Shown here in pieces: positions 10,504-54,429 of a DNA stretch of 59,467 bases (position 1 is its first letter; each line of letters opens with the position of its first letter). The position numbers and the translations under genes are program-made. The stretch spans positions 1 to 59,467 of the forward strand of contig JAUSII010000092.1 in assembly GCA_030648035.1 (NCBI GenBank), in the 5' to 3' direction. This stretch comes from Deltaproteobacteria bacterium. GTDB lineage: Bacteria; UBA10199; SPLOWO2-01-44-7. The notes under the pieces were generated by a model that saw nothing but the letters and a program-made list of their open reading frames with translations, was not told where the DNA came from and searched no databases.

Positions 10504-10509
10504 TCCATA

Positions 10510-11505: not shown

Positions 11506-11509
11506 TTTT

Positions 11510-13209: not shown

Positions 13210-13210
13210 A

Positions 13211-14853: not shown

Positions 14854-15587
14854 AAACAATCCAACAACTCATGAATTTGAAAGGCCGCAAAGCCCTGGTG
14901 ACAGGGGGCAAGGGATTTATTGGAAGGGCCGTTTGCGAAACGCTTCAAGAACTGGAGGCCCAGGTCAAAATTCTGGATCTTCCGGAATGCGATTTAAAGG
15001 ATGAAAAAGCCACGCGTGATTTTGTGCAGAACGCCATCACCGAAATGAAGGGGCTCGACATATTGATCCACTGCGCCGCTTATGTCGGGACCACAAAGCT
15101 TCCCGGGTGGTCGTCTCCGTTTGAAGAACAGACCGTCAAAGCATGGGATGAGGCTTTGCGGGTGAATGTGACCTCCGCTTTTGTTGCGGTGCAGGAAGCC
15201 AAAAAAGCGCTAGAGGCCTCCGGGTGCGGTTCAGTTATTTTATTTAATTCCATTTACGGCGTTGTCGGTCCCGATATGCGTTTGTATGAAGGGACCGAGA
15301 TGCACAATCCGGTGGCTGGGGGTGTTTCAAAAGGAGGGTTGCTTCAATTGAGCCGTTACCTGTCAACGATACTGGCCCCCAAAGTTCGTGTGAATACGAT
15401 TTCGCCAGGGGGTGTCTGGAGAAAACAGCCGGAGGGTTTTCAGGAACGTTATGTCGCGCGCACGCCCTTAAAAAGAATGGCTACCGAAGAGGACATGAAA
15501 GGGGCTGTCGCCTATCTGGCCAGTGATTTGTCACGTTACGTTACCGGCCATAATCTGATGGTCGATGGAGGGTGGACAACATGGTAG
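14850..15587 (+). CDS. PtmA-like SDR lacking the catalytic tyrosine
   Basis: The start is ATG 14850 (ATGA overlap), 245 residues. TGGKGFIGRA is the cofactor loop and NSIYGVVGPD carries the active-site Ser. The segment NPVAGGVSKGG aligns with the NPxAYGASKGG of PtmA-type reductases, so the residue four before the catalytic Lys is Gly instead of Tyr. That change (codon GGG) should impair classical SDR chemistry. The gene lies between legF-like and legG-like genes, as ptmA lies near ptmB in Campylobacter flagellin glycosylation loci. It may be inactive, structural or altered in function. Confidence 0.8.
   Translation: MKTIQQLMNLKGRKALVTGGKGFIGRAVCETLQELEAQVKILDLPECDLKDEKATRDFVQNAITEMKGLDILIHCAAYVGTTKLPGWSSPFEEQTVKAWDEALRVNVTSAFVAVQEAKKALEASGCGSVILFNSIYGVVGPDMRLYEGTEMHNPVAGGVSKGGLLQLSRYLSTILAPKVRVNTISPGGVWRKQPEGFQERYVARTPLKRMATEEDMKGAVAYLASDLSRYVTGHNLMVDGGWTTW
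15567..15572 (+). promoter_or_regulatory. Shine-Dalgarno GGAGGG inside the SDR gene, deciding the legG start
   Basis: GGAGGG from the Asp-Gly-Gly codons of the upstream SDR lies 8 nt before ATG 15581. It favours that ATG over the GTG at 15572 used by the ORF track. Same position and spacing as at 6418. Confidence 0.7.
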
Positions 15588-16747
15588 CAACGCCATATCG
15601 GATTCTGCTGGTGTCCAGCACCCGTGCCGATCTCGGCTATTTGCGGTTTGTCATCAAGGCCCTGCAAAAAAATCCGAATTTTAAAATTATTGTGACGGCC
15701 ACTTGCATGCATCTGGCTGCCTCTTCTGGAAAGACCATTCGTGAGTTTGAAGAGTTGGGCATTGAGGTGGATGAAAAGGTTGAGATGCTCCTCGATTCTG
15801 ATTCTCCCGCCGGTATCGCCAAATCAATGGGTATGGGCATTCTGGGCTTTGCTGATCTCCTCGATCGGGTTCGGCCGCAGGCGGTGATGGTCATGGGAGA
15901 TCGCTTTGAAATTTTGTCGGTCGCCGCCGCATGTCTCCCTTTTGCAATTCCGGTCATTCATTTTTCGGGAGGTGATCTCACGGAAGGGGTGATCGATGAT
16001 GCCATTCGTCACGCGGTCACCAAACTGAGTCATTTTCATTTTCCGGCAACAGAAGTGCATGCAAAACGTTTGCAACAAATGGGAGAGGAATCGTGGCGCA
16101 TTCGTGCGGTGGGCGAGCCCGCTCTCGAATTCTTAAGTCAGGAAACGCTTCTGACAAAAAAAGAATTGGAAAAAGATCTGGGATTTGCATTGGAGGATTC
16201 CACTCTGTTGGTGACCTTTCATCCAGAGACACTCGAAGCGGGAGACTCAAAGAGGCAAGTGGCCATTCTCACCCAAACCCTCTCCAAACTGTCTCTCCCG
16301 ACCATTATCACCGGTCCCAATGTCGACACCGGTTCTTCCGTCATTCGCGAAACGCTCAAAAATTTTGCAAAACAAAATCCGAAGACCCTTTATGTGGAAA
16401 ATCTTGGGCACAAAAGATATTTGAGTCTTTTGCAGTTTGTCGGTGCCCTGCTTGGAAATTCCTCGAGTGGTATTGTGGAGGCACCTTCTTTTTCACTTCC
16501 GGTGGTCAACCTTGGAACGCGGCAGAATGGGAGAATCAAGGGGGTCAACATTATCGATACGCCGATTGAAACAGAACGGATCATGTCTGCGGTGGAAAAG
16601 GCTCTCTCCGGGGACTTCAAAAAAACCCTGGTGGGGATGCAAAATCCCTATGGCGATGGCAATACCAGCGCTCGTGTTGAGGAAGCCCTGCTGGAATGGA
16701 TCCCCCGTTCTGCTGAAGCACTGCACAAGAAATTTACAGAAAAGTAG
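15581..16747 (+). CDS. legG: Hydrolysing UDP/GDP-sugar 2-epimerase (NeuC/LegG type)
   Basis: A 388-residue GT-B-fold epimerase. VMGDRFEIL, HFSGGDLTEGVIDDAIRHA and KLSHFHF match the first half of the hydrolysing 2-epimerase signature, and GNSSSGIVEAPSFSLPVVNLG with RQNGR matches the second. NeuC/LegG enzymes remove the nucleotide and invert C2, giving the free manno-configured sugar used by the NeuB-type synthase. Start ATG 15581 is supported by GGAGGG. The gene belongs to a contiguous legionaminate-type set, so LegG is preferred over NeuC, but substrate specificity is inferred. Confidence 0.88.
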   Translation: MVATPYRILLVSSTRADLGYLRFVIKALQKNPNFKIIVTATCMHLAASSGKTIREFEELGIEVDEKVEMLLDSDSPAGIAKSMGMGILGFADLLDRVRPQAVMVMGDRFEILSVAAACLPFAIPVIHFSGGDLTEGVIDDAIRHAVTKLSHFHFPATEVHAKRLQQMGEESWRIRAVGEPALEFLSQETLLTKKELEKDLGFALEDSTLLVTFHPETLEAGDSKRQVAILTQTLSKLSLPTIITGPNVDTGSSVIRETLKNFAKQNPKTLYVENLGHKRYLSLLQFVGALLGNSSSGIVEAPSFSLPVVNLGTRQNGRIKGVNIIDTPIETERIMSAVEKALSGDFKKTLVGMQNPYGDGNTSARVEEALLEWIPRSAEALHKKFTEK

Positions 16748-18508: not shown

Positions 18509-19596
18509 AATATATTGGCGGTGATCTGGAGTTGGATCTGGATTACTTGAAGGCTCCCAAAACGGGTGGGGCGGAGTCCTTTTTTCATCTTGAAATGGCC
18601 CATGATTTTGTCTGGACCAGTCTCGGAGTGGATGCCTTGGCGCTGGCCCTCATCAATGAAGGGTTTGAAGCTGGTGATGAAGTCTGTTTGCCGGCCTATA
18701 ACTGCATGAAAGTGGCCGATGTGGTCGAAAATCTGAAAGGAGTTTGTCGGTATTATCCTGTCGCAGAAAATCTTCAGGTTTCTGCCGACGCACTTCTTGC
18801 GGAGGTTACGGAAAAAACGAAGGCGGTGATTTGGGTCAATTACTTTGGATTTTCAAAAACAGATTTTGAACTTTTGCAGGCCATCCGGGCGAAAAACAAA
18901 AATACGGCGATCATACTCGATTTTGCACAGGCCCTCTTTTCCATCGATAAAAAAATATTACAGAGTCCCTGTGTCGATTATATCGCAACCAGTTTTAGAA
19001 AATCACTCCCGGTTCCCGATGGGGCTCTGCTGATCTCCAATCACAAAAAAATAGATCGAAGGCATTTAAGTCCCTCGGTAAGGGGAATGGTTTGGGAGCG
19101 GGCGGCCGCAAAAATTTTCAAAGGGGTCTGGTTGAAAGAGGGTGGAAAATCGGAAGCGGCGGAAAAATTCTGTCTGGAATTGATCCATCATTCCGAAACC
19201 GCACTCGATGCGGGACAAAATTTGAGTGTCTCTTCCCGCCTTTCCCTCGAATATATTGAGAGAACCGATTTTGACACCATCGCCAAAAAAAGAAGAGAGA
19301 ACGCCCGTTTTTTATATCAACATCTGGATCAGAGTCTTTTTCTGTTTGATTTCGATTCTTCGGTTGTCCCTCTGGTCATCCCCATTTCGATTCCAGAAAG
19401 GGACCGTGTCAGGGTCGAGCTGATGCAGTCCCGTATTTTTCTTCCGGTCCATTGGCCCCTGGATGGGCGCATTGATAAACAACGTTTTGCGGCGGCCCAT
19501 CGGATGAGCGGCTCTCTCCTTGGCCTTGTTGTTGACCAGCGTTATGGAATGGAGCATATGCAATATCTGGTGGATGCGTTGAAAAAAATATTATGA
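18505..19596 (+). CDS. DegT/DnrJ-like PLP-dependent enzyme
   Basis: The start is ATG 18505 (4-bp overlap), 363 residues. DFVWTSLGVDALALAL, GDEVCLPAYNCMKV, VIWVNYFG, ILDFAQALF (PLP-binding Asp) and SFRKSLPVPDG (candidate Schiff-base Lys near residue 173) follow the order of fold-type I sugar aminotransferases of the DegT/DnrJ/EryC1 group. It differs from LegC- and PseC-type proteins elsewhere in this window, so it probably acts on another keto-sugar or keto-acyl substrate. It could also be a PLP-dependent dehydratase of the same fold. Confidence 0.72.
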   Translation: MKYIGGDLELDLDYLKAPKTGGAESFFHLEMAHDFVWTSLGVDALALALINEGFEAGDEVCLPAYNCMKVADVVENLKGVCRYYPVAENLQVSADALLAEVTEKTKAVIWVNYFGFSKTDFELLQAIRAKNKNTAIILDFAQALFSIDKKILQSPCVDYIATSFRKSLPVPDGALLISNHKKIDRRHLSPSVRGMVWERAAAKIFKGVWLKEGGKSEAAEKFCLELIHHSETALDAGQNLSVSSRLSLEYIERTDFDTIAKKRRENARFLYQHLDQSLFLFDFDSSVVPLVIPISIPERDRVRVELMQSRIFLPVHWPLDGRIDKQRFAAAHRMSGSLLGLVVDQRYGMEHMQYLVDALKKIL

Positions 19597-20630
19597 ACTG
19601 GTTTGAAACCCTTCAAAAAACGTCCAGACCCTATCTCATTGCCGAGGCGGGGGTGAATCACAACGGGGATATCCGCCTGGCGCATGAGCTGATTGATGTC
19701 GCCAAAGCGAGTGGGGCCGATGCAGTCAAGTTCCAGACGTTTGTCACTGAAAATCTGATGTCGCCATCCGCCCCTCTGGCCGATTATCAGAAAAAATCGG
19801 GGGAACTTTCCCAGTTTGAAATGGCCAAACAGCTGGAACTCTCTTTCGATGATTTTATAACACTCAAAAAATATGCTGAAAAACAGGGGATCACGTTTCT
19901 GTCAACCCCGGATGAGGAAGAGAGTCTTGAATTTCTTGTCTCTCTCAATCTTGAGGCGATCAAGGTCGGCTCCGGAGAGTTGACAAATCTCCCTTTCCTG
20001 CGTCTGATCGCCAAAGCGAACAGACCCGTTATTCTCTCCACCGGGATGTCGACTCTGGTGGAGATTGAAAAGGCTGTCTCGGCCATCCGGAGTTTGGGCA
20101 ATCATCAGATCGTTCTGCTCCACTGTGTTTCGGAATATCCGGCCCCGTTTGCCGATGTGAATTTGAAAGCGATGCAGACGATGCGGGAGACCTTTCAGCT
20201 TCCGGTCGGTTTTTCGGATCACACTTTGGGTTTTTCGGTTTCTCTCGCGGCGGCGGCGCTTGGGGCCTCTGTCATTGAAAAACATTTCACTCTGGACAAA
20301 TCGATGAAGGGTCCCGATCATGCCTGCTCCCTGGAACCCTCCGAATTAAAAGCCCTGGCCGATGGGTTAAAAGAAATAGCACTGGCCATGGGCAATGGCA
20401 TAAAAGTTCCAGCACCCTCGGAGTTGAAGAACAGGGAGGTTGTTCGCAAAAGTATTGTCGCCAAAAAAGATATTTCCGCCGGAGAGGTTCTCACAGAACA
20501 TCATTTTGCGTTCAAAAGATCGGGGGGCGGGATTGAACCCTCCGATGCCGACAAATTGATCGGCTTGAAATTGAAAAAAAATATTAAAAAAGATTCCCCT
20601 CTGGAATGGAGCCTTCTGGAACATGTCTGA
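19593..20630 (+). CDS. legI: N-acylneuraminate/legionaminate synthase (NeuB family)
   Basis: A 345-residue protein, 4-bp overlap with the upstream gene. It carries AEAGVNHNGD, VKFQTF, STPDEEESL, STGMST, LHCVSEYPAP, GFSDHTLG and EKHFTLDKSMKGPDH, including both metal-ligand His residues. A C-terminal antifreeze-like SAF domain follows from about residue 285 (RKSIVAKKDISAGEVL). NeuB enzymes condense PEP with a hexosamine to make a nine-carbon acid. With LegC, LegG, PtmE and LegF homologues around it, legionaminate is the likely product, although sialic acid cannot be ruled out by sequence alone. Confidence 0.9.
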   Translation: MNWFETLQKTSRPYLIAEAGVNHNGDIRLAHELIDVAKASGADAVKFQTFVTENLMSPSAPLADYQKKSGELSQFEMAKQLELSFDDFITLKKYAEKQGITFLSTPDEEESLEFLVSLNLEAIKVGSGELTNLPFLRLIAKANRPVILSTGMSTLVEIEKAVSAIRSLGNHQIVLLHCVSEYPAPFADVNLKAMQTMRETFQLPVGFSDHTLGFSVSLAAAALGASVIEKHFTLDKSMKGPDHACSLEPSELKALADGLKEIALAMGNGIKVPAPSELKNREVVRKSIVAKKDISAGEVLTEHHFAFKRSGGGIEPSDADKLIGLKLKKNIKKDSPLEWSLLEHV

Positions 20631-21622: not shown

Positions 21623-22702
21623 ATGTATATCGATCTCGACAAATTGTGTGTGCCCCTGGGAAGCTCCATTCTGGATGCCGTCCAGAGAATGACGCTCAAC
21701 CGTCTGGGTATTGTGCTGGTGGTCGATCAGGAGAAAAAACTGCTGGGGACCATTACCGATGGCGACATCCGGCGGACTATTCTGGCCAATATTGCCCTGA
21801 CTGGGACGGTGGCGATACTTCTGGAAAACAAGGCCAACACGCCCCACTCCAAACCTTTGACCGGAAAAGCGGGTGAATCGGGAAAACATTATCTTCAGTT
21901 GCTTAAAACACATCAGTTGTTGCAGTTGCCCCTGGTGGATGACCGGAACCGTGTAGTAGGGTTGGTCACCATGGATGAATTTGTCGATCCTGTCGATATC
22001 CGTTTGCAGGCGGTGGTGATGGCGGGTGGCCGCGGAGCCCGTTTGAATCCGTTGACGGAAGATATTCCCAAGCCGATGTTGACGGTCGGAGAAAAACCGT
22101 TGTTGGAAATTATCATTGCCCAATTGAGATCGGCTGGAATCCGGAATGTCAATATCACCACCCATCACAAGTCCGAAAAAATTTCGGATCATTTTGGAAA
22201 TGGGCAAAATTTTGATGTCAATCTCTCCTATGTTCCGGAAGAGACCCCGCTCGGCACCGCGGGGGCCATTGGTTTGATGAAGATGCCCAAAGATCCTCTG
22301 TTGGTGATCAATGGGGATATTCTGACGAAAGTCGATTTCAAGGCGATCCTCCAGTTTCATCGTGAACATCAGGCCGACCTGACGGTGGGGGTTCGGGTTT
22401 ATGATTTCAAGGTTCCCTATGGCGTGGTGGAATGTGATGGGGCAAAAGTAGTGGGCCTCGCAGAAAAACCGAGTTACAGTTTTCTGGTCAACGCGGGGAT
22501 TTACCTTCTCGAGCCGCATGTGCACCAGTTTATTCCACAGGGACAGCATTATAATATGACAGATCTCATTCAATCTCTGCTGGAGCGGGGGTGTAATGTC
22601 GTCAGCTTTCCTATTCATGAATATTGGCTCGATATCGGCAGTCATGCCGAATACCGAACCGCCCAGGAAGATGCGGTCTATTTTCATCCGGAACAAAAAT
22701 GA
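21623..22702 (+). CDS. ptmE: CBS-domain sugar-1-phosphate nucleotidyltransferase (PtmE-like)
   Basis: A 359-residue protein. Residues 1-120 contain two CBS repeats (VVDQEKKLLGTITDGDIRR and LVDDRNRVVGLVTMDEF). From about residue 130 there is a nucleotidyltransferase domain with VVMAGGRGARLNPLTEDIPKPM, GTAGAIGLM and INGDILTKVDF. The same order is found in PtmE, the glucosamine-1-phosphate guanylyltransferase of the Campylobacter legionaminate pathway. The CBS pair could sense adenine or guanine nucleotides. The location before a LegC homologue supports a GDP-amino-sugar route. Confidence 0.87.
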   Translation: MYIDLDKLCVPLGSSILDAVQRMTLNRLGIVLVVDQEKKLLGTITDGDIRRTILANIALTGTVAILLENKANTPHSKPLTGKAGESGKHYLQLLKTHQLLQLPLVDDRNRVVGLVTMDEFVDPVDIRLQAVVMAGGRGARLNPLTEDIPKPMLTVGEKPLLEIIIAQLRSAGIRNVNITTHHKSEKISDHFGNGQNFDVNLSYVPEETPLGTAGAIGLMKMPKDPLLVINGDILTKVDFKAILQFHREHQADLTVGVRVYDFKVPYGVVECDGAKVVGLAEKPSYSFLVNAGIYLLEPHVHQFIPQGQHYNMTDLIQSLLERGCNVVSFPIHEYWLDIGSHAEYRTAQEDAVYFHPEQK

Positions 22703-23865
22703 AAAATAATTTTATTCCATTGTCGAGACCCTGTCTCGGCGGCAACGAGTGGCTCTATGTCAAAGAGTGCCTTGATACCGGATGGGTCTCCTCCGCGGGG
22801 CCTTTCATAGACCGTTTTGAAAAAGCCGTGGCTTTTAATGTCGGGGCGGAGGATGCGGTTGCCGTCAGCAGTGGAACAGCCGCTCTCCATACTGCTTTGC
22901 TGGTGATGGGTGTCAAGGCCGGTGATGAAGTGATTGCTCCAGCGTTGACGTTTGTGTCGCCGATTAATGCCATTTGCTATGTGAATGCCTCGCCTGTTTT
23001 CATGGATGTTTCGCCTGATTCATGGAATCTCGATGTCAACAAGCTGGCCTCCTTCCTAGCGGAAAATTGTGAAGTGCGTGGAGAAGAATGTTTCAACAAA
23101 AAGAGTCAAAAAAGAATCCGGGCGATTGTTGCAGTGCATCTTCTGGGGAATTGTTGCGATATGGACCCGATTCTGGATATGGCAAAACGTTATCATCTCA
23201 AGGTGATCGAAGATGCGGCCGAAGCAATGGGGGTTCTCTACAAGGGAAAATCGGTCGGAACACTGGGGGATATCGGTTGCTTCAGCTTTAACGGCAACAA
23301 GGTGATCACCTGTGGCGGTGGGGGAATGATCGTCGCAAAAAATAAAAAAGATCTGGATTATGCCCGTTATCTGACGACGCAGGCCAAAGATGATCCGCTG
23401 GAATATATCCACAATGAGATCGGCTACAACTATCGGCTCACCAGTCTGCAGGCGGCGGTTGGTTTGGCCCAGTTGGAACAACTGGATCAGTTTGTGGCAA
23501 AAAAAAGGCAAATCGCCTCTTTTTATCAGGAGGCTTTCAAAGATTTGGAAGAGCTGACACTCATGTCCGCTCCCTCCTATTGTGAGTCGACCTGGTGGCT
23601 CTACACCGTTTTGCTGGGGGCGAAGAGGTCTTTGCAAGAACGCAAGGATCTCCTTCGCACATTGAAAGAAAATGGGATCGACGCCAGACCCTTCTGGCAT
23701 CCCATTTATACGCTTGCTCCCTACAAAAATTTTGAATCCTACAAAATGGAAAAGACGATGTCTCTCTACGAAAGAGGGGTCTGTCTTCCTTCCAGTGTCG
23801 ATGTGACCCCCGATGAACTCCAAAAAGTGGTTGCTGTGTTCAAAAAGTCTCTCGCCAGTTTATAA
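22699..23865 (+). CDS. legC: LegC-type PLP aminotransferase
   Basis: The start is ATG 22699 (ATGA overlap), 388 residues. RPCLGGNEWLYVKECLDTGWVSS, SSGTAALHTAL, GDEVIAPALTFVSPINA, VIEDAAEAMG (PLP Asp) and CFSFNGNKVITCGGGGM (Schiff-base Lys) are the features of LegC-family DegT aminotransferases, which aminate C4 of the 4-keto-6-deoxy hexosamine nucleotide. The LegB dehydratase that should supply the keto sugar is not seen in this stretch. The last gene of the compact legionaminate-type block. Confidence 0.88.
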   Translation: MKNNFIPLSRPCLGGNEWLYVKECLDTGWVSSAGPFIDRFEKAVAFNVGAEDAVAVSSGTAALHTALLVMGVKAGDEVIAPALTFVSPINAICYVNASPVFMDVSPDSWNLDVNKLASFLAENCEVRGEECFNKKSQKRIRAIVAVHLLGNCCDMDPILDMAKRYHLKVIEDAAEAMGVLYKGKSVGTLGDIGCFSFNGNKVITCGGGGMIVAKNKKDLDYARYLTTQAKDDPLEYIHNEIGYNYRLTSLQAAVGLAQLEQLDQFVAKKRQIASFYQEAFKDLEELTLMSAPSYCESTWWLYTVLLGAKRSLQERKDLLRTLKENGIDARPFWHPIYTLAPYKNFESYKMEKTMSLYERGVCLPSSVDVTPDELQKVVAVFKKSLASL

Positions 23866-28569: not shown

Positions 28570-28589
28570 GAATAGAAAGGTTGATGGAT

Positions 28590-29555
28590 ATGCAATCGAT
28601 ACAGACCAGTCATGTTTTTTCGCTTTCAGAAGTCAAACCGTTGGAGGGGCTCCTCCGTTACCGTGAATTTTGTCTGAACGCGACGAAGAAGGCTTTGGCA
28701 AAAGGGGCAACGCGCCGGAATATTTCGCCGATCAATGGCGTTTCAATGGAACCATGGGGGAATATCGGCGGGCTGGAATATCTTCGTTGCCCGGCAAGCG
28801 GGAGTCTTTTTCTTGCAGAGGTTGCAACGAGTGAAGTTTGGAAAAAACTATTGGCTGAAGTGGCGCAATTCCGCCGCTCCCCTCAAACATTCCATGCGGA
28901 TATCACGAAGTCGCGCACAGAGAATGTTTTTGAACCAAAGCTTCACTGGATTCAAAGTACTTTGCGGGTTGAGGGCGTGCATCGCCCAAAAATTTTGGAA
29001 GTGGCTACTCCTCCCAGCGGCTTTACTGCCATGATTCAATCGCGCGGCGGTTTTGGCGAGATTTTGTCGGTGGATGAAACAGATCTGAGCCAAGGGAAAC
29101 CTGCTTTTGAAAAGCTTGATGCCGCTCTTCTTCTGGAATCGCTCGATCGTGTGAATGATCCTCTCGCTCTACTGAAAAATGTTCATGATTCGCTTGCCGA
29201 TCAGGGATTAATCTTTGTCACCGGCCTGGTGTCATCGGGTTTTGATATGATGATTTTGGGGTCCAACAATGCCTACCTGTATCCTCCGGATCGGGCCAAC
29301 TGTTTCAGCCTTGAAGGATTAAAAGCCCTGATAACCAAAGCCGGGTTCCAACTTCTGGAAGTCAGCACGCCAGGGGTGCTGGATGTTGAAATTGTAAAGT
29401 CCCATCTGAATCATAATCCGGATACTTCTCTTTCTACTTTTGAAAAAAAACTACTTGGGGCCGATAGAGTAACTCACACAGCTTTTCAATCTTTTTTACA
29501 ACAATCAAACATGAGTTCTTTTGCTAGAATCGTGGCGAGAAAAACAAAATGCTAA
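28590..29555 (+). CDS. Divergent SAM methyltransferase-like protein
   Basis: I favour ATG 28590, which lies 9 nt after GAAAGG; TTG 28581 and ATG 28584 are in frame but badly spaced. About 321 residues. PKILEVATPPSGFTAMI takes the place of motif I but lacks the usual GxGxG. LDAALLLESLDRVNDPLALLKNVHDSLADQGLIFVTG matches the motif IV to post-motif region of Methyltransf_11/23 proteins. FSLEGLKALITKAGFQLLE is typical of sugar methyltransferases. The weak SAM loop suggests altered cofactor binding or a non-catalytic role. Confidence 0.6.
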   Translation: MQSIQTSHVFSLSEVKPLEGLLRYREFCLNATKKALAKGATRRNISPINGVSMEPWGNIGGLEYLRCPASGSLFLAEVATSEVWKKLLAEVAQFRRSPQTFHADITKSRTENVFEPKLHWIQSTLRVEGVHRPKILEVATPPSGFTAMIQSRGGFGEILSVDETDLSQGKPAFEKLDAALLLESLDRVNDPLALLKNVHDSLADQGLIFVTGLVSSGFDMMILGSNNAYLYPPDRANCFSLEGLKALITKAGFQLLEVSTPGVLDVEIVKSHLNHNPDTSLSTFEKKLLGADRVTHTAFQSFLQQSNMSSFARIVARKTKC

Positions 29556-30091
29556 AATTTTTGGCCAAATCCATTTATGAGCCGGTTCGATTTCAAAAAA
29601 TGCGGTGGAGTGTGTGGCGTAAATTTCGTTGTTTTCTTCCCAGTAGCACCATTATTGCAACTCCCAAGTTCATCAAGATCGGCAAAAATCTGGCTTTGGG
29701 AAAATTCTGCCAAATATATTGCCAGGATCCGGAAAAGGGGAGTGTCCTGGAGATTGGCAACAATGTCAGTTTGAATTCAAATGCCATGATTATCGCTAAC
29801 GAAGGGGGAAAAATTTATATTGGTAATGATGTTTTGTTGGGTCCCAATGTTGTCTTGCGCGCTGCCAACCATTCTTTTGAGTCAAAAAATATCCCCATCC
29901 GTAGTCAGGGGCATAAGGGCGGGACTATTGTGCTGGAAGACGATGTCTGGCTGGGTGCCGGAGTCGTTGTTCTGCCTAATGTGCGCATTGGCAAAGGTTC
30001 TGTCGTTGGAGCTGGCAGTGTTGTGACAAAAGATATTCCCCCTTTTAGCGTTGCAATGGGTGTCCCGGCGCATGTTGTTCGGTCTCGATGA
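29549..30091 (+). CDS. Hexapeptide-repeat acyltransferase (LbH family), first of a pair
   Basis: A 180-residue protein overlapping the upstream gene by 7 bp. Imperfect [LIV]GxxxxI hexapeptide turns run through the protein (IGNNVSLNSNAMIIA, IGNDVLLGPNVVLRA, VWLGAGVVVLPNVRIG, GSVVGAGSVVTKDIPP). It has the NHSFES loop containing the His used for catalysis in the maltose/galactoside acetyltransferase group and a GVPAHVV end. Trimeric left-handed beta-helix O- or N-acyltransferase. Lying next to FkbH and ACP genes, it may take an acyl-ACP donor rather than acetyl-CoA. Confidence 0.85.
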   Translation: MLKFLAKSIYEPVRFQKMRWSVWRKFRCFLPSSTIIATPKFIKIGKNLALGKFCQIYCQDPEKGSVLEIGNNVSLNSNAMIIANEGGKIYIGNDVLLGPNVVLRAANHSFESKNIPIRSQGHKGGTIVLEDDVWLGAGVVVLPNVRIGKGSVVGAGSVVTKDIPPFSVAMGVPAHVVRSR

Positions 30092-30116
30092 TTTTAGATA
30101 CACAAGAGAACGTAAA

Positions 30117-30770
30117 ATGATCAAAAAAATAAGACGTTTTTTTGAGTTGGTGCAAAAAAGGCAATTATGGAGCCTTTTGTATATGAGGATCTGTCTTTAT
30201 AAACTTCGTGAAATCAGAGGCCACTTTTCACTTTTGTTCCATAAACTTCTTTATCATAATTTTTCTGTTGGAAAAAACGTGAGGTGTTGGGGAAAGATCA
30301 TTGTGGGAATGAGTGAGGATAGCTTCATTACTCTTGGAAATAATATTCGCATGGCTTCCGATAACAAACGTTCCGGTATTGCCCTTTTTTCGCATTGTAA
30401 ATTTCGCACATTTGCCAATGGAAAAATTGTTATTGGGAATAATGCCGAGTTAAGCGGGGTATCCATTACTTCCCGCAAAAAGATTGTCATTGGCGATGGA
30501 GCAATGCTGGGCCCCAATACGATTATTGTTGATTCTGATTTTCACAAATTTTGGCCTCCGGAAGAAAGAGCTCTTGGAGCCGGTTTTGAAGAAGATAGAG
30601 AGGTGATTATCGGAAAACAAGTCTATGTAGGTATGAATTCGATTATTTTAAAAGGTGTGAATATTGGGAATCATTCCATTGTTGCAGCGGGGAGCGTTGT
30701 CTCTGGGGTTTTCCCTGCAGATGTTGTGATCGCAGGCAATCCTGCCCGTGTTGTGGGTAAGCGACCATGA
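30117..30770 (+). CDS. Hexapeptide-repeat acyltransferase (LbH family), second of a pair
   Basis: The start is ATG 30117 (217 residues), after a 25-bp gap that is the longest ordinary gap in the window. A basic N-terminus of about 65 residues is followed by hexapeptide turns: VGKNVRCWGKIIVG, IGNNAELSGVSI, IGDGAMLGPNTIIVDSDFHKF, IGKQVYVGMNSIILKGVNIG and NPARVVG. The DSDFHKF loop supplies the usual catalytic His. It is AT-richer than most of the window. With the preceding gene it gives two acyltransferases beside a dedicated acyl-ACP system. Confidence 0.82.
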   Translation: MIKKIRRFFELVQKRQLWSLLYMRICLYKLREIRGHFSLLFHKLLYHNFSVGKNVRCWGKIIVGMSEDSFITLGNNIRMASDNKRSGIALFSHCKFRTFANGKIVIGNNAELSGVSITSRKKIVIGDGAMLGPNTIIVDSDFHKFWPPEERALGAGFEEDREVIIGKQVYVGMNSIILKGVNIGNHSIVAAGSVVSGVFPADVVIAGNPARVVGKRP

Positions 30771-32491
30771 AATTTTCAGAAGCACTTCAAATCACAAGAC
30801 TGCGCCATTCCTTTGATGGAACAATGTGGTGCCTTGCCTCCTATAATCCGTTTGTTCTAAAAACTTTTCTTCAGGCCCATTTGATAAAAAATTCGGAAAA
30901 AAATCAGATGTGTTATGAGGTGAAGAATTTTGATTATGATGTATTGCGGCGTGCTCTTGAAGAAACTTCTTCTGATGATAAAAGAGCTGATCCGGCAGTG
31001 CTCTCTTTGATGTGGGAAGATTTTATCCCTGCCTTGGGCTGGAGAAGCAGACAGTCTGGATCCGCCAGGCCTGATTTGATTTTGGAGCCTTCAGAAGCGT
31101 TGTGTTCCTCCATTGTTCAGTGGGGAGAAGATAGAAGTAAAATCGGTGGATTATCGATTGTGCTTTTACCTCCTCTCTCGTGGTTGCCGCCAACGGGTGG
31201 AGAACCTTCGTTTTTGCTGGATTCCAATCATATCGAATTAATGACATGGCGTACAAAATTTTCCCAGGATTTGAAAAAAAGAGGCATGTTTGTTTTTGAT
31301 TTGGGTCAGCCCAAACTCAATCTTCGGGATATGCTCTCTTCCGGTTCTCCCTGGGCCCTGGAGGAGGCTCGGGAGATTTCTTCCAAGATTGCTGCGATGA
31401 TTGCCCCTTTGAGTGCCCGGATTAAAGCCATTGTTGTGGATTTGGATAATACGCTGTGGCAGGGGATTTTGGAAGATGGCTCTGCACTGCAGAATGCGTC
31501 GGAAGAATCATGGAATCATAAACCCTATCACGTTTTCGCCTCCATGCTTTTGTCCCAGAAAAAACGGGGCATTTTTCTTGCCTGCTGTTCCAAAAATGAT
31601 CTGGGTCTCGTTCAGGAAAACTTCTCCAGGTTAAACAATGCAATGTCTTTGGAAGATTTTAATGCAGTTGTAATCGATTGGAGTTTAAAGTCAGCCGGTA
31701 TCGCCCATATTTGTGCTTCGCTCAACATTCTCCCGCAGAATGTTCTTTTTGTGGACGATAATCCGGCTGAATTGTTGGAGGTTCAAAATAAATTTCCCGA
31801 AATCATCTGCCTTAAAACACCCAATGAAAATGAAACGCAGGAATGGCTCGATTTTTATGCCCAGTTCAAGGAGATTTGTTTTCGACCCTCTGCTGCATCT
31901 TTGGAAGATACTATTCGAGTCCAGGATAAACATGCAGTAGAGCGAAAGGCGCTTTCTTCCCATGCGGGCGGAACTTCCCTGAAAGAATATCTCCGTTCTT
32001 TAAAGCTTGTTTTGGAAGTGCAGCAAGGGCTTTGGGAAGAAAAAAGGACGCTCGATTTGATCAATAAAACAAATCAGTTTACTCTCAATGGCAATCGTTA
32101 CACTCCCTCCCAATTTTTAGAACTTCGCAAAGACAATAGCGCTTGGTGCTTGTCAGGGAACCTGACAGATATTCACGGTGTTTTTGGAACGATTGCCGTG
32201 ATGTGCGGCCATCAGACTTCGGAAGCGATTTTTATTGATGCCATGGCTGTCAGCTGTCGGGCCTTTGACAGAAATGTGGAATACGCTTTTTTGCAGGCCT
32301 TGTTGCAGATCAAAAATTGCAAAAAAATCGTGTTTGTGGTCAAGGAGACTCCGCGTAATGCCCATGCGCGCAAATTTCTTGAATCATTGGCTTTGTCGTG
32401 GGAGCAAACAGAGCTTTTGGATATTCCCTCTTTGTTGGGGGTTCTTGAAAATAAATGTTCAGAAGCCGGAACAAAGGTGGTGATTAGATGA
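30767..32491 (+). CDS. FkbH-like HAD-IIIC protein with flanking domains
   Basis: A 574-residue protein with ATGA overlap. An N-terminal domain of ~215 residues is followed by a HAD domain with AIVVDLDNTLWQGILEDG (nucleophile Asp) and VLFVDDNPAELLEV. A C-terminal acyltransferase-like region follows, with LINKTNQFTLNGNRYTPSQF. This is the full-length FkbH architecture. FkbH proteins dephosphorylate 1,3-bisphosphoglycerate and load glyceryl onto an acyl carrier protein. The ACP gene follows immediately (4-bp overlap). The acyl group here is inferred to be glyceryl-derived or a related hydroxyacyl, destined for sugar acylation. Confidence 0.88.
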   Translation: MKFSEALQITRLRHSFDGTMWCLASYNPFVLKTFLQAHLIKNSEKNQMCYEVKNFDYDVLRRALEETSSDDKRADPAVLSLMWEDFIPALGWRSRQSGSARPDLILEPSEALCSSIVQWGEDRSKIGGLSIVLLPPLSWLPPTGGEPSFLLDSNHIELMTWRTKFSQDLKKRGMFVFDLGQPKLNLRDMLSSGSPWALEEAREISSKIAAMIAPLSARIKAIVVDLDNTLWQGILEDGSALQNASEESWNHKPYHVFASMLLSQKKRGIFLACCSKNDLGLVQENFSRLNNAMSLEDFNAVVIDWSLKSAGIAHICASLNILPQNVLFVDDNPAELLEVQNKFPEIICLKTPNENETQEWLDFYAQFKEICFRPSAASLEDTIRVQDKHAVERKALSSHAGGTSLKEYLRSLKLVLEVQQGLWEEKRTLDLINKTNQFTLNGNRYTPSQFLELRKDNSAWCLSGNLTDIHGVFGTIAVMCGHQTSEAIFIDAMAVSCRAFDRNVEYAFLQALLQIKNCKKIVFVVKETPRNAHARKFLESLALSWEQTELLDIPSLLGVLENKCSEAGTKVVIR

Positions 32492-32736
32492 GTCATGCTA
32501 TTGAAGAGAGATTGGAAAAGCTTTTTAAAAATATTTTTCCGGAGCCGCTTCATCCGGAAATTCGTCAAATCAGTCAGATGAATTCCGTGGAATGGGACAG
32601 TTTGATGCATCTAAATGTAGTGCTGTCTTTGGAAGAGGAGTTTGGGGTGCAACTCAATGATGAGGATGCCCTGGATGTCAATTCCTTTGACAGCGCTGTT
32701 GCCGTTATTAAAAGCAAGCTGGGAACTCAGTCATGA
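32488..32736 (+). CDS. Acyl carrier protein
   Basis: An 82-residue acidic, helical protein overlapping neighbours by 4 bp on both sides. VEWDSLMHLNVV contains the DSL motif; Ser38 should carry 4'-phosphopantetheine. LEEEFGVQLNDEDALDVNSFDS matches helices II-III of ACPs. A stand-alone ACP between an FkbH protein and a MaoC-SDR fusion indicates a dedicated, non-housekeeping acyl-building line. No phosphopantetheinyl transferase gene is present in the window. Confidence 0.92.
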   Translation: MSHAIEERLEKLFKNIFPEPLHPEIRQISQMNSVEWDSLMHLNVVLSLEEEFGVQLNDEDALDVNSFDSAVAVIKSKLGTQS

Positions 32737-33881
32737 AAATGGGAGAATCCAAATCGTTTTGTGTCATGATTGACCAGAAATTGGTTCAATCCTTTGCCGA
32801 TTTTTCCGGCGACTACAATCCTATTCATGTTGATGCGGGTGTGGGTAGTCGCTCTGAATACAAGGGGTGTATTGCGCATGGTGCCCTGTTATTGTCATTT
32901 GTTTCCAGGATGCTTGGCATGGAATTGCCGGGCCCCGGTTGCGTGATCCTTCGCCAGGAGGTGCAGTTCCCAAAGGCATTAAAGGCCCCCGCTGAAATTT
33001 TGGTCGAAGCAAAACTCGTTCATTTTAATGAGGAAAGAAAAGATGGCAAAGTGGAAGTGACCGTTTCCAGTCATCAGGGAACACATGTGTTAACCCATGT
33101 TTATTTCATGCTTCATCATCAAACTTCCGAAACTTTATCAATAAAATCCCTTCCTGATGTCGGCAATGTTTTCCCAAAACCAAAAAAAGAGGGTGGTGTT
33201 AATAAACTGCTTATCACCGGTGGAACAGGTGGGGTTGGGGCCGACATTGTGAATATTCTGAGCCAACATTATGAATGCCTCGTGATTTCCAGACGCCCTC
33301 TGGAAAACAAAAAAAAAGTTCATTTTTGCAAATTGGATCTTGAATCGGAAGAGAGCCTTCGTTCTGTTTTAAGCGATTTGAATCCCGCAGATTTTTGGGG
33401 CATTGTTCACATGAGTTCTCTCGTTCCTGTTGAACGCCGTCTTTTGGGTTCCATCGAAGAGATGAAAAAACATTTCCACCATTCTGTTGAATTGCCCCTC
33501 TCTTTTGCCGGGTGGGCGAGTCAAAATCAGTCCAATGTTCATAGAATGATTCTTTTGGGGTCGACTGCAGGTTCCAAACATTTGGAAAAGTCGATGCCCG
33601 GGTATTCTCTGGCAAAATCATGCATGGGACCTCTGGTTCAGTTGCTGGCGCCGGAATTAAGTCGTCTTAAAATCACAATCAATGTTGTTTCCCCTGGTTT
33701 TATACCCGCCGGAATTAATGCGGGAACCCCGGAGCGCAAACAAACGGCTCTGGCAGGTATGACGCCGACCGGCAAATTGACCTCTCCAAATGATATTGCC
33801 TCTGTTATTACCTTTCTTTTGTCTCCCGAGGCTTCCCAGGTGAATGGTTCCAATATAACCGTGGACGGCGGCATTCTGTAA
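32733..33881 (+). CDS. MaoC hydratase - SDR ketoreductase fusion
   Basis: A 382-residue protein with ATGA overlap. Residues 1-135 are a MaoC/hot-dog hydratase: FSGDYNPIHVD (catalytic Asp and His) and IAHGALLLSF. Residues ~150-382 are an SDR: ITGGTGGVGADIV, LLGSTAGSK with the active Ser, PGYSLAKSCMG (Tyr-x3-Lys), SPGFIPAG and VDGG. The two halves would catalyse 3-hydroxyacyl/enoyl and 3-keto/3-hydroxyacyl conversions on an ACP- or CoA-bound acyl chain. Directly after the ACP gene, the protein probably supplies or trims a short hydroxyacyl group for glycan N- or O-acylation. Confidence 0.88.
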   Translation: MKMGESKSFCVMIDQKLVQSFADFSGDYNPIHVDAGVGSRSEYKGCIAHGALLLSFVSRMLGMELPGPGCVILRQEVQFPKALKAPAEILVEAKLVHFNEERKDGKVEVTVSSHQGTHVLTHVYFMLHHQTSETLSIKSLPDVGNVFPKPKKEGGVNKLLITGGTGGVGADIVNILSQHYECLVISRRPLENKKKVHFCKLDLESEESLRSVLSDLNPADFWGIVHMSSLVPVERRLLGSIEEMKKHFHHSVELPLSFAGWASQNQSNVHRMILLGSTAGSKHLEKSMPGYSLAKSCMGPLVQLLAPELSRLKITINVVSPGFIPAGINAGTPERKQTALAGMTPTGKLTSPNDIASVITFLLSPEASQVNGSNITVDGGIL

Positions 33882-33898
33882 TACAGAAGTATTTGAAA

Positions 33899-35002
33899 AT
33901 GGATAAACTGACCATCATTTTTCCCACGAAGAACCGGCATCATTTTCTTAAAATGGTTTTGGAATATTACGCCCAAAACAAATGCCAGTTTCCCATCGTT
34001 ATCGGGGATGCCAGCGACAAAGAAGTCTTTGAGCAGAATCGCCGGCTTGTGGAAGGTCTCAAAGGTCGGTTGAATATCGATCATCAGGCACATCCCCTGC
34101 AATTAAGTTCACAAGCTTCTGTGGTGCGCTCTCTTGAAATGATAAAGACGCCTTATTCTGTTTTCTCCGGAGACGATGATTTTTTTGTTCCTGCCTGTTT
34201 GCAAGAATGCGTTGATTTTTTGGATGAAAATCCGGATTATAATTTGGCCAGCGGCGAATTTTTGATGGCCTATGTAAAAAGAACACCCCAAAGTCGGTAT
34301 GAAATGGATAAAATAGTATTTGGGGATTTTCGCAGATCCGTCTTGGATAATTCAGCACGCGCTCGGCTGATTCAGAGTTATTACCCACGCCAGGTTATCA
34401 ATACATTTTCAGTGCAAAGAACCAAAAATATTCTTCACATGTATAAAAAAATACTTCATGCGGGTTTGGATGCAGATATGTATGGCAATATCTTGTGTGA
34501 AGTGGCCGCGAACGGATTGAGCCTCATTTACGGAAAAGAAATGAAGCTCCCGAGGCTTTATATTGTTGCATTAAAACATGGGGAGCAATTGTATCAATCT
34601 CGTGCGGCGGGTTTGAATTCGATTTCCCGCATTACATTCGAATATTGGCCTCTTTATCTGAAAAAAGTTATTCAATTATTGACAGATGCTTTGATGGAAA
34701 AAGATTCAATACCGCTTGATGAGGCGCAGTCCATTGCGGAAACATGCATTCTTTATTATCACACCAATGTTTTGATGCTCGGTTATCCTACGGATGTTTT
34801 AAAAGAACATGGCATAACTTTTGTTTCGTCACAGCACGGCATAGGCCGGCTCCTTTTTAATAAAGTCGCCGCCAGATTCCCTTTTTTAAAGAATTTAAAG
34901 CAGCGTTTGCGTCCATCTAAAGCTGCTTTGCCAAATCTTCTGAATCCGAAGTCGCCTTATCACGCAGACTTTATGCCAATTTACAGTTCTTTTGAAAAAT
35001 AA
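33899..35002 (+). CDS. TIGR00180-type glycosyltransferase (paralogue of 47665-48801)
   Basis: The start is ATG 33899 (367 residues). TIIFPTKNRHHFL, GDASDKEVF and VFSGDDDFFVP (DDD metal motif near residue 98) define a GT-A transferase of the TIGR00180 group. The C-terminal ~150 residues contain a helical domain that is not part of classical GT2 folds. It shares PTKNR, IGDASD, SGDDDF.VP and a terminal DFMPIY with the paralogue at 47665. It uses a nucleotide sugar donor in the cytoplasm. AT-rich like its upstream neighbours. Confidence 0.8.
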   Translation: MDKLTIIFPTKNRHHFLKMVLEYYAQNKCQFPIVIGDASDKEVFEQNRRLVEGLKGRLNIDHQAHPLQLSSQASVVRSLEMIKTPYSVFSGDDDFFVPACLQECVDFLDENPDYNLASGEFLMAYVKRTPQSRYEMDKIVFGDFRRSVLDNSARARLIQSYYPRQVINTFSVQRTKNILHMYKKILHAGLDADMYGNILCEVAANGLSLIYGKEMKLPRLYIVALKHGEQLYQSRAAGLNSISRITFEYWPLYLKKVIQLLTDALMEKDSIPLDEAQSIAETCILYYHTNVLMLGYPTDVLKEHGITFVSSQHGIGRLLFNKVAARFPFLKNLKQRLRPSKAALPNLLNPKSPYHADFMPIYSSFEK

Positions 35003-35008
35003 TTGCCT

Positions 35009-35962
35009 ATGAGTGACAACCTTTCTTGCCCCCTTTGTCTGGCTTCTCAAACTCCCAAAAAGGAAAAAGAGCGTGTTTACAAGACGCATCATCCCTTGTT
35101 TGCCTCCTGTCAGATTGTTTTTTGCGAGGCTTGTAAAAGCGGCTGGGTTTCCAATCCGCCAGATGGAAAACTTTTGCAGGAATATTATGACATCGAGAGC
35201 AATAAAGTCAGTTCCTTTTTTGGGTTTACAGTAAAACCACTTTTGACGCTGGAGCGTTGTCAATCTCTGGCGCGATGGCGATTTATTCTGGATGCTGTCC
35301 GGAAGGCAGGAAGAAAAGATTTTTTAAACAAGTTTTCTGTTTGCGACATCGGTGCCGGATATGGTTGCACGCTTGAAGTGGGGAGATATCAGAAGTTTGA
35401 TTTTGATTTTTTTGCGTTTGAGAAATCGAAAACACTGCGCCAGCATATTACGGCGTTGGGAGGGACGGTGTCCGGTGATCTTTTTGAAACAGAAGAAAAA
35501 AAACAATTTGATCTTGTTTGGGCGAGCCATATTTTGGAACACTATGCCGACCCCGATATTTTTATAAAAGAAATTAAACAGCTGATGAAGTTGGAAGGGC
35601 TTGGTTTTGTGGAGGTTCCCTTTCTCGATTGCGAATATAAAACCAATTTGACCGAACATCTTCTCTTCTTCACCATGGATGGATTGCAAAAAGTCCTGGA
35701 ACGCAATGGTCTGAAAATTTTATCTCTCGATTCCGTGGGGCTTTCGCGGGAAAAAACAAAAATGATTTTTGAGCAATATCCCAAAAACAGGCATTCCTGG
35801 CACAACAAGGCAAAAAGGGCCCTTTCTTCCATTTTTGTTCGCAAAAATCTTGCAACCGATCTGCAAAACAATGCTGTGTTTGATGAGTGGGGCATGGAAG
35901 CTTATGGCGGAGGAGATCGATGCTGGATTCGTGCCGTTTTTTCGAAAGGGTGTGACGCATGA
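35009..35962 (+). CDS. Class I SAM methyltransferase with N-terminal zinc ribbon
   Basis: The start is ATG 35009, 317 residues. Residues 7-45 hold a CPLC ... CEAC zinc-ribbon pair (TTHHPLF-like spacing between). Then VCDIGAGYGCTLEVG (motif I), FAFEKSKTL, DLVWASHILEHYADPDIF and FVEVPFLD follow. The zinc ribbon plus Methyltransf_23 layout is seen in sugar C-methyltransferases and related enzymes of nucleotide-sugar pathways. AT-rich. It overlaps the next gene by 4 bp. Methylation of a keto sugar or of the acylated glycan is an inference. Confidence 0.8.
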   Translation: MSDNLSCPLCLASQTPKKEKERVYKTHHPLFASCQIVFCEACKSGWVSNPPDGKLLQEYYDIESNKVSSFFGFTVKPLLTLERCQSLARWRFILDAVRKAGRKDFLNKFSVCDIGAGYGCTLEVGRYQKFDFDFFAFEKSKTLRQHITALGGTVSGDLFETEEKKQFDLVWASHILEHYADPDIFIKEIKQLMKLEGLGFVEVPFLDCEYKTNLTEHLLFFTMDGLQKVLERNGLKILSLDSVGLSREKTKMIFEQYPKNRHSWHNKAKRALSSIFVRKNLATDLQNNAVFDEWGMEAYGGGDRCWIRAVFSKGCDA

Positions 35963-36753: not shown

Positions 36754-37688
36754 TGATGTTGAACTCCATTAAAAAAATGGCGGCGAAGATTCTCTTTACA
36801 CCGGTCGACACTTCAACACGCCTCCGTGAAAAATTGCTGGGGCAGAAAATCCAGACACGCAATCACTACTATCTGATGAAAATGTTTCGTCTTCTCTCAA
36901 AACAATATCTCATAGATTTTGATTATCCCAATCCGCTCGACCCCGCTTTAAGGCTGAAACTGAAACTCGATTTGTGTCAGAACACGCAGCAGTGGCTTTT
37001 TCGTTCTGGCGGAAGTTATGAAATGGCGTGGATCAAAAAAATCGGCCAGGGTTTGAAGACAGCTGATGCGTTTGTCGACATCGGCGCGCATGTCGGTGTC
37101 TTTGCTTTGACTCTGGCCCAGGCACATCCTTCAAAGCGGGTGATCGCAGTAGAGGCCAATACCCAAAATTATGACCGGTTGGTCGACAATATTGGCGCAA
37201 ATGGTCTGCAAAATGTGAAGGCGGTCCAGGGAGCGGTGGCCCTGCAAAAAGGAAAGGCCCGGTTTTATTTCAATCCGATCAACGACGGCGGGGGATCTCT
37301 TCTGCCGTTTGAAAAATACAAGACCGGGGGGATCAGCCTTGATGCAAAAACATACCAGACGCAAAACGCCAATTTTATCCCATCAGATGAGGTTTTCACC
37401 TATCGTCTGGATGATCTGATCACAGAGAAAAGTGTCGTTAAAATAGATGTCGAGGGGAGCGAAATGGAGGTATTGACGTCTGGCGAGGGTTCTTTTAGTA
37501 GAGGATGGGTTCAAATGGTGGTGATTGAGGTCGGGAACGAGATAACGCCTGAGGTCCTGGCCTGGTTTGATAAAAAAGATTTTGATTGTTTCACTCTGGA
37601 AAATCCAAAGCCGATCCAACAAGATGGCGATTGGGGTTCCAAAATAGGTTACGGCGGCCGCATGCTCATTGCCAGCCCAAGGAGATAA
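36750..37688 (+). CDS. FkbM family methyltransferase (second of a tandem pair)
   Basis: The start is ATG 36750 inside ATGATGATG (ATG 36753 is also possible), about 312 residues. FVDIGAHVGVFALTLAQ with AVEANTQNYDRLVDNI is the SAM site, and VVKIDVEGSEMEVL is the FkbM late motif. It is longer at the N-terminus than its tandem partner. No other domain is apparent. The last codons contain AAGGAGATAAA, the Shine-Dalgarno for the next gene. Confidence 0.85.
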   Translation: MMMLNSIKKMAAKILFTPVDTSTRLREKLLGQKIQTRNHYYLMKMFRLLSKQYLIDFDYPNPLDPALRLKLKLDLCQNTQQWLFRSGGSYEMAWIKKIGQGLKTADAFVDIGAHVGVFALTLAQAHPSKRVIAVEANTQNYDRLVDNIGANGLQNVKAVQGAVALQKGKARFYFNPINDGGGSLLPFEKYKTGGISLDAKTYQTQNANFIPSDEVFTYRLDDLITEKSVVKIDVEGSEMEVLTSGEGSFSRGWVQMVVIEVGNEITPEVLAWFDKKDFDCFTLENPKPIQQDGDWGSKIGYGGRMLIASPRR

Positions 37689-37689
37689 A

Positions 37690-38457
37690 ATGACGTTGAA
37701 GAAAAAAATCAGAAATCGCGACATCGTTTTCGGTGCCTGGACTTCGTTGGCTCATCCGCAGATCACCGAGATGTTCGCCTCCATTATGAAGCCCGACTTT
37801 ATAGGCATCGATATTGAACACAGCACGATTAATCACGGAGAATCTCAAAGAATCATTGCGGCAGGACAAGCCGCCGGGGTTCCGGTTTTGCCGAGAGTCG
37901 CCTCGCACAACGGCGAACAGATCCGCCGTCTTCTCGATTCAGGCGCCGACGGTCTCATTGTCCCGATGGTGAACACGGTCGAAGAGACAGGGCAGATCGT
38001 CAACTGGTGCAAATATCCCCCGGTGGGTAAAAGAGGTTTCGGCATCGCGCGCGCACAAGGATACGGCGCCACGTTTGCGGAATATACCTCCATTTGGAAT
38101 GAGAAATCAGTTTTGATGATCCAGGCCGAATCGATTCAGGCGGTTGAAAATATCGACAAGCTCCTTGAAAATGAGCAGGTCGATGGCGTAATGGTCGGAC
38201 CCTACGACATCTCCGGCTCTCTGGGAATCCCCGGAAAACTGACCGACCCCAAAGTGGTCGCGGCGAGCAATCGCGTGGTGGACGCCTGCAAACGCCACGG
38301 CAAGGCCTGTGGCACACAGATTACCGAACTCCCCGACGCAGAAAAAATCGGCAAGGCAGTCGATGGTGGTTACACATTTATTGTTCTGGCCTCCGATATT
38401 TTTCTTTTCTGGCACTGGTCGGCACAGATGAGACAACTCAAGGAGAAATTTTTATGA
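37690..38457 (+). CDS. HpcH/HpaI-type class II pyruvate aldolase (second of two)
   Basis: The start is ATG 37690 with AAGGAG upstream; 255 residues. FIGIDIEHSTINH, GLIVPMVNTVEE, KRGFGIARAQGYGA, IQAESIQAV (metal-ligand Glu) and GVMVGPYDISGSLG parallel the aldolase at 9727, with shared ARAQGYGA and GPYD. Two SDR genes and then a KdsB-like cytidylyltransferase follow with 4-bp overlaps. This gives a compact predicted route: pyruvate aldol addition, redox tailoring, CTP activation. The aldehyde partner is unknown. Confidence 0.87.
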   Translation: MTLKKKIRNRDIVFGAWTSLAHPQITEMFASIMKPDFIGIDIEHSTINHGESQRIIAAGQAAGVPVLPRVASHNGEQIRRLLDSGADGLIVPMVNTVEETGQIVNWCKYPPVGKRGFGIARAQGYGATFAEYTSIWNEKSVLMIQAESIQAVENIDKLLENEQVDGVMVGPYDISGSLGIPGKLTDPKVVAASNRVVDACKRHGKACGTQITELPDAEKIGKAVDGGYTFIVLASDIFLFWHWSAQMRQLKEKFL

Positions 38458-40782: not shown

Positions 40783-40797
40783 AGTGAAGGAAATTTT

Positions 40798-50994: not shown

Positions 50995-51008
50995 CAAGGA
51001 GAAATAGC

Positions 51009-52726: not shown

Positions 52727-52732
52727 AAAAAT

Positions 52733-54424: not shown

Positions 54425-54429
54425 GAATC

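Follow-up and report, generated by a model that had tools for sequence, protein, structure and literature searches.

Glyceryl-ACP is made by FkbH and an ACP in the tetronate cassette (FabH-like protein, FkbH, ACP and acyltransferase), which requires a KAS III and a polyketide chain. FkbH is also accompanied by a stand-alone ACP in the methoxymalonyl-ACP cassette (FkbG-FkbK), where FkbI/FkbK dehydrogenases and an O-methyltransferase are employed and there is no MaoC-SDR protein. In the FR901464 and lankacidin systems, bifunctional DH-KR proteins convert glyceryl-S-ACP to lactyl-S-ACP (He 2014, 10.1002/anie.201406602, as reported in PMC4765723); according to that secondary account, these enzymes feed polyketide synthases. 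Related acyl groups are known from surface glycans. The capsule of Psychrobacter marincola contains an N-lactyl, (R)-2-hydroxypropanoyl pseudaminic acid (PMC7281560), and the Campylobacter jejuni flagellin glycan system combines dimethylglyceroyl pseudaminic acid with an fkbH-domain gene (PMC3068675, PMC7099621).

The locus described here was found in a contig of a Deltaproteobacteria bacterium (JAUSII010000092.1, assembly GCA_030648035.1), and the window is the whole stretch analysed, 59,467 nucleotides. Its features are given in Table 1. The genes for an FkbH-like protein, an ACP and a MaoC-SDR fusion are joined at both junctions by 4-bp ATGA overlaps, and the hexapeptide ORF upstream ends at 30770, inside the start of the FkbH gene. 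The trio with two hexapeptide genes before it had been described in the first-pass annotation, and its coordinates and overlaps proved exact. The surroundings had been called a nonulosonate locus, and this was borne out by NeuB, NeuC and LegC-type genes, all above curated cut-offs, as in a legionaminate-type locus.

Table 1. Features of the locus, with coordinates as positions in the window.
Feature	Coordinates	Strand	Remarks
NeuC-type UDP-GlcNAc 2-epimerase	15572..16747	+	TIGR03568, 412 vs 236 bits
NeuB-type nonulosonate synthase	19593..20630	+	TIGR03569, 455 vs 400 bits
LegC-family aminotransferase	22624..23865	+	TIGR04181, 480 vs 420 bits; putative source of free amino group
Class I methyltransferase (Methyltransf_23)	28581..29555	+	Edge of low-GC cassette; GC3 0.45
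Hexapeptide (LbH) acyltransferase 1	29549..30091	+	PF00132; WbbJ/NeuD/LpxA-like below cut-offs; second candidate lactyltransferase
Hexapeptide (LbH) acyltransferase 2	30117..30770	+	PF00132; ORF opens at TTG 30051, ATG at 30117; candidate lactyltransferase
FkbH-like HAD-IIIC protein	30767..32491	+	574 aa; predicted glyceryl loading from 1,3-bisphosphoglycerate onto ACP
Stand-alone acyl carrier protein	32488..32736	+	82 aa; WDSL motif, Ser38
MaoC dehydratase-SDR reductase fusion	32733..33881	+	382 aa
TIGR00180-family glycosyltransferase, after fusion	33893..35002	+	TIGR04440, 139 vs 70 bits; GC3 0.41
Class I methyltransferase	35003..35962	+	Other edge of low-GC cassette; GC3 0.43
Second NeuB-family gene	51009-51995		

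The FkbH protein was matched by the curated model TIGR01686 at 179.3 bits (cut-off 146.65, E=1e-52), and the HAD-IIIC model was also passed. When it was compared with 89 relatives, 34 of the 35 columns conserved at 95% or more were kept, among them D225, D227, S275, D330, D331 and C497; the sole change was from N to T439. Its AlphaFold model had a pLDDT of 79, and Foldseek matched it to BF1531 (3slr) and to HAD/GNAT folds.

The ACP carries its serine in a DSL motif and fell just below the PF00550 cut-off (20.1 against 20.8 bits), and a model trained on FkbH-associated ACPs gave it 55 bits; it is therefore described as ACP-like and divergent. WDSL was present in 46 of the 59 scored FkbH-associated ACPs and is typical of FkbH partners, while the housekeeping AcpP of the same genome carries ADSL. 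Judged by its sequence, the ACP of the trio is a dedicated carrier distinct from AcpP. A PPTase is present in the genome (PF01648 match above cut-off).

Both domains of the fusion passed their models (PF01575, residues 13-113; PF13561, residues 190-381). The motifs GDYNPIHVD at 26, TGGTGGVG at 162, Ser277 and YSLAK at 291 were invariant or nearly so across six other fusions, and the catalytic residues, MaoC Asp27/His32 and SDR Ser-Tyr-Lys (with Tyr291), are kept. No relatives of the fusion were found when genome and viral contigs were scanned with its single sequence, and profiles were required. With tblastn against plasmids, every match fell short of 80% query coverage, and those listed were to the SDR half.

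The SDR half was nearest to FabG-type 3-oxoacyl-ACP reductases, a placement also given by Foldseek, and the MaoC half to (R)-specific enoyl-CoA hydratases. These affinities, together with a KAS III gene in one related locus (L149), would suit a 3-hydroxyacyl group (e.g. 3-hydroxybutyryl) formed by MaoC and SDR from ketoacyl- or enoyl-ACP, with FkbH supplying a unit or partner. This is improbable, as no ketosynthase was found in the window by profile search and KAS III was absent from 26 of 27 related loci. A motif regular expression for ketosynthases was dropped, its own positive controls having been missed. Genome-wide statements refer to family searches; that for beta-ketoacyl synthases (PF00109) matched two thiolases and nothing else. 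Because the window has no ketosynthase, MaoC and SDR are proposed to act directly on the FkbH-loaded glyceryl, and with KAS III in just one of the 27 loci as well, extension of the C3 unit is unlikely. Most likely, then, both halves work on the C3 glyceryl itself and give a 2-hydroxyacyl (lactyl) group.

On balance, and with modest confidence, we favor a lactyl-ACP pathway dedicated to acylating a glycan, for which we infer the following chemical steps, product, transferase and acceptor. FkbH would use 1,3-bisphosphoglycerate, strip the phosphate and place D-glyceryl on the stand-alone ACP. The MaoC half would remove the C3 hydroxyl of glyceryl-S-ACP to give an enolpyruvyl and, by tautomerisation, a pyruvyl thioester, and the SDR half would reduce the alpha-ketone to lactyl-S-ACP. 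One of the two adjacent hexapeptide acyltransferases may then transfer the lactyl to a sugar amino (or hydroxyl) group, a plausible acceptor being the 4-amino sugar from the LegC-type aminotransferase, en route to a legionaminic-acid-like nonulosonate; a neighboring methyltransferase may cap the lactyl group afterwards. Homologues of hexapeptide acyltransferase 2 adjoin FkbH elsewhere (in locus L110 at 11 bp), but hexapeptide, GNAT, MBOAT and AAC(3)-like acyltransferases all occur across the loci, which makes the choice of transferase here a guess. The first-pass annotation had proposed that a short hydroxyacyl group is assembled on its own ACP and transferred to a surface sugar. That proposal fits the recurring gene set, the conserved active sites, the glycan context and the precedents in the literature. 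As the window has no ketosynthase, it needs refining, the most likely chemistry being dehydration and alpha-keto reduction instead of the ordinary 3-hydroxyacyl kind.

The likeness to the FR901464 and lankacidin systems, as far as the secondary account describes them, lies in a glyceryl-ACP substrate and one bifunctional dehydratase-reductase; FkbH, an ACP and a bifunctional protein occur together here also, as known from the genes. Rather than feeding polyketide synthases, the enzymes here stand alone amid sugar genes, and a MaoC domain of about 110 aa would serve as dehydratase. Unlike the tetronate cassette, the window gave no match to KAS III by profile search. FkbI (acyl-ACP dehydrogenase) and FkbK (3-hydroxyacyl dehydrogenase) were absent beside FkbH, where the neighbors are hexapeptide proteins, the MaoC-SDR fusion, a glycosyltransferase and methyltransferases. 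The Psychrobacter capsule sugar corresponds to the predicted end product, a lactyl amide on a nonulosonate. The C. jejuni locus resembles this one in having an fkbH-domain gene (cj1302) in a nonulosonate system and, as predicted here, a C3 acyl group carried by the amine of the nonulosonate, but its product is a methylated glyceroyl (Pse with 2,3-di-O-methylglyceroyl), unlike the lactyl predicted here, and the role of cj1302 there is putative.

That precedent raises the alternative that glyceryl-ACP from FkbH and ACP is transferred unchanged, perhaps O-methylated as in C. jejuni, with the MaoC-SDR protein serving another reaction. Methyltransferase genes lie within the same low-GC cassette, FkbM genes follow, and among 80 FkbH loci taken from other genomes, 47 had an ACP with no MaoC or SDR. 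We regard this as unlikely, because the fusion gene and the ACP gene share 4 bp and, in a reverse test, six of seven MaoC-SDR fusions newly found by searching without FkbH adjoined an FkbH gene, which argues that the fusion acts on the FkbH product. NeuB was nearby in three of those six.

Recurrence of the trio in other genomes had been proposed as a check, and the set does recur: 20 of the 80 FkbH loci have MaoC and SDR next to FkbH, either fused or as separate genes, in Planctomycetota, Acidobacteriota, Pseudomonadota, Bacteroidota, Myxococcota and Bacillota. Cultured carriers include Flavobacterium geliluteum (locus L080) and Fournierella massiliensis (L054). Chance is excluded for this proximity: of the 28 MaoC ORFs, 25 shared a strand with FkbH and lay no more than 1.6 kb from it, where 4.7 would be expected and 2000 random placements never gave more than 14. 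NeuB, glycosyltransferase or DegT aminotransferase genes mark several related loci as glycan loci. Such loci, and a window in which no PKS, NRPS or ketosynthase was found, make it very unlikely that the acyl group serves a different product, e.g. a small secondary metabolite, and that the glycan-locus position is incidental, even though polyketide, tetronate and NRPS clusters are the best-known setting of FkbH.

The first-pass annotation did not recognize the combination as described. That claim is narrowed by the presence of the set, fused or split, across many phyla and by reports of the same logic for polyketide starters, and the novelty is best read as polyketide-style lactyl-ACP logic, already known, now in glycan loci. 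Among the open-access papers searched, nothing was found on FkbH with MaoC and glycosylation, or on FkbH with O-antigen. More tentatively, FkbH, ACP and MaoC-SDR (fused or split) might convert a glycolytic intermediate into lactyl-ACP in many phyla, with dedicated acyltransferases lactylating nonulosonic acids and other surface sugars, as a widespread and previously undescribed system. Such a system would fill a gap in the biosynthesis of N-lactyl sugars, that of Psychrobacter among them. If right, the proposed pathway would provide a genetic signature and biosynthetic route for the lactylation of bacterial surface glycans, tie central glycolysis directly to surface decoration, make polyketide-style starter chemistry common to glycan loci across phyla, and give a clear prediction for genomes with already solved glycans.

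A single origin of the module cannot be claimed, because the FkbH of the window is on a long branch (2.41) in the FkbH tree and the MaoC-SDR label showed no significant clustering there. Its closest tree neighbors had neither ACP nor MaoC-SDR. Some FkbH-ACP-MaoC loci had no detected SDR, and MaoC followed by SDR was also seen without FkbH, as five split pairs and one fusion.

The FkbH, ACP and MaoC-SDR genes were re-examined in the window, and their positions matched the first-pass annotation exactly. Both of the 4-bp overlaps it had described were confirmed as ATGA, and the end of the upstream hexapeptide ORF was found to overlap the FkbH start as well. The FkbH protein scored above its NCBIfam cut-off and the fusion above the Pfam cut-offs for both MaoC and SDR; the ACP fell slightly under the PF00550 cut-off, with Ser38 in a WDSL motif. 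This motif occurred in 46 of the 59 FkbH-associated ACPs with a readable motif, versus ADSL in the AcpP of the window's own genome (32% identity to the window ACP over 41 residues). A phosphopantetheinyl transferase was located in the same genome by family search. Its PF00109 (ketoacyl-synthase) matches were two thiolases only (C75 and C104), yet a canonical AcpP was present; fatty-acid synthesis may follow an unusual route, or the bin may lack some genes. The trio is real, recurrent and functionally coherent, a putative acyl-ACP assembly line with a specific product prediction.

Features of the window and of FkbH or MaoC-SDR loci from other genomes (L-numbers)
Feature	Location	Strand	Content
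Ulosonate-like gene set	6404-13936
Low-GC block	28581-35962		methyltransferase, two hexapeptide acyltransferases, FkbH, ACP, MaoC-SDR, glycosyltransferase, methyltransferase
Hexapeptide acyltransferase	29549-30091	+
Hexapeptide acyltransferase	about 30117-30770	+
FkbH	30767-32491	+
ACP	32488-32736	+
MaoC-SDR fusion	32733-33881	+
Ulosonate-like gene set	37669-42173
Ulosonate-like gene set	50005-58419
KAS III gene	L149:5901-6950		adjoins FkbH/ACP/MaoC-SDR set
Long protein	L042:8950-10425		about 490-500 aa, adjoins FkbH + ACP
Long protein	L100, ORF after fkbH		as L042
Long protein	L111:8294-9790		as L042
Set without SDR	L032:2340-4923		FkbH, ACP, AAC(3)-like acyltransferase, MaoC, methyltransferase
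Set without SDR	L091:3726-8143		as L032

The C3 unit loaded by FkbH domains is glycerate (PMC10099666, PMC8609519, PMC4979870). The window protein kept 34 of 35 near-universal FkbH columns; among them are both aspartates of HAD motif I, Ser275 and the adjacent Asp330 and Asp331. Cys497, likewise kept, sits in an invariant SCR motif and may carry the glyceryl. Across seven fusions, conservation covered Asp27 and His32 in the MaoC half and, in the SDR half, the Gly motif together with Ser277, Tyr291 and Lys295. AlphaFold models of moderate confidence (pLDDT 79 for FkbH, 74 for the fusion) matched BF1531, HAD phosphatases and, more weakly, GNAT for FkbH, and FabG-type reductases foremost for the fusion.

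Since no ketosynthase was found in the window, and profile search detected KAS III in only 1 of 27 related loci, there is no obvious 3-ketoacyl substrate for MaoC and SDR. In that single locus (L149) the KAS III may extend the C3 unit. For the window trio, the proposed route has glyceryl-ACP itself dehydrated to enolpyruvyl/pyruvyl-ACP, which would then be reduced to lactyl-ACP. DH-KR proteins of FR901464 and lankacidin biosynthesis are described as converting glyceryl-ACP to lactyl-ACP by dehydration and reduction (He 2014, as cited in PMC4765723). A 2020 paper (PMC7281560) described N-lactyl pseudaminic acid and called it the first example of its kind, and C. jejuni has a glyceroyl-type pseudaminic acid and an fkbH-domain gene in its flagellar glycosylation region (PMC3068675, PMC7099621). 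Enzyme logic and end product thus both have precedents, and we infer that the two are linked in glycan loci.

Species genomes were scanned with an FkbH alignment, and the best 80 of at least 557 relatives were studied as loci. The gene set, whose co-occurrence elsewhere the first-pass annotation had left to be checked, recurred fused or split: among these best 80, an ACP gene lay within 1 kb of FkbH in 69, adjacent same-strand MaoC and SDR genes occurred in 20, and MaoC in 25. MaoC ORFs lay within 1.6 kb of FkbH in 25 of 28 cases (4.7 under random placement; maximum 14 in 2000 trials). Fusions were found in Planctomycetota (L036, L043), Myxococcota (L038), Pseudomonadota (L049, L053) and Bacteroidota (L083), and split genes in Bacillota, Bacteroidota, Acidobacteriota, Planctomycetota and Pseudomonadota. 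The set was also present in split form on a plasmid-assigned contig of Subdoligranulum variabile. The order hexapeptide-FkbH-ACP-MaoC-SDR recurred in L038 and L110. MaoC-SDR was present in 3 of the 4 NeuB-bearing loci among the 80, a small number. The long proteins of L042, L100 and probably L111 had an N-terminal MaoC-type and a C-terminal SDR/KR domain; polyketide DH-KR proteins may be their closer relatives. The sets without SDR in L032 and L091 are sisters that should yield a different C3-derived acyl group.

So that FkbH played no part in selection, a fusion alignment was searched against about 1,300 genomes in four groups (E limit 1e-25 in the first, 1e-34 in the others), and genomes that had supplied the alignment were omitted from the counts. 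Six of seven new single-ORF fusions lay beside FkbH, mostly with an ACP too, and three of these six (L147, L153, L158) had NeuB within about 9 kb. Five stop-split MaoC/SDR pairs in this search lacked a nearby FkbH; the pair alone is therefore not specific.

The nonulosonate assignment of the first-pass annotation held, with NeuC, NeuB and a LegC-type aminotransferase all above cut-off within a large sugar-nucleotide and ulosonate locus that also encodes a CBS-nucleotidyltransferase, glycosyltransferases and an ABC transporter. The three further ulosonate-like regions contained a 3-dehydroquinate-synthase-like gene, two HpaI aldolases, CMP-sugar-type transferases (four in the window), a second NeuB-family gene, B12-radical SAM, a formyltransferase and a PIG-L deacetylase; the locus may produce two or more unusual acidic sugars. 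GC3 in the block around the trio was 0.35-0.45 versus 0.47-0.63 in most checked neighbours on both sides, and its 1-kb GC was 0.405-0.453 versus 0.492 +/- 0.025 elsewhere, which suggests a single horizontally acquired cassette. An FkbH match (E<=1e-20) was obtained in just one other genome of 46 searched in the phylum. Because methyltransferases share this cassette, transfer of the glyceryl from FkbH/ACP unchanged, perhaps O-methylated, stays a live if unlikely alternative to the lactyl product.

By position and co-occurrence, the hexapeptide genes are the best candidate transferases for the predicted lactyl group. Other loci had GNAT, MBOAT or AAC(3)-like neighbours instead. MBOAT acyltransferases occurred within the FkbH-ACP-MaoC loci L045, L056, L069, L075, L099, L100 and L105; they recall DltB, which takes D-alanine from DltC, and by this analogy suggest acyl-ACP-dependent transfer across the membrane in those loci.
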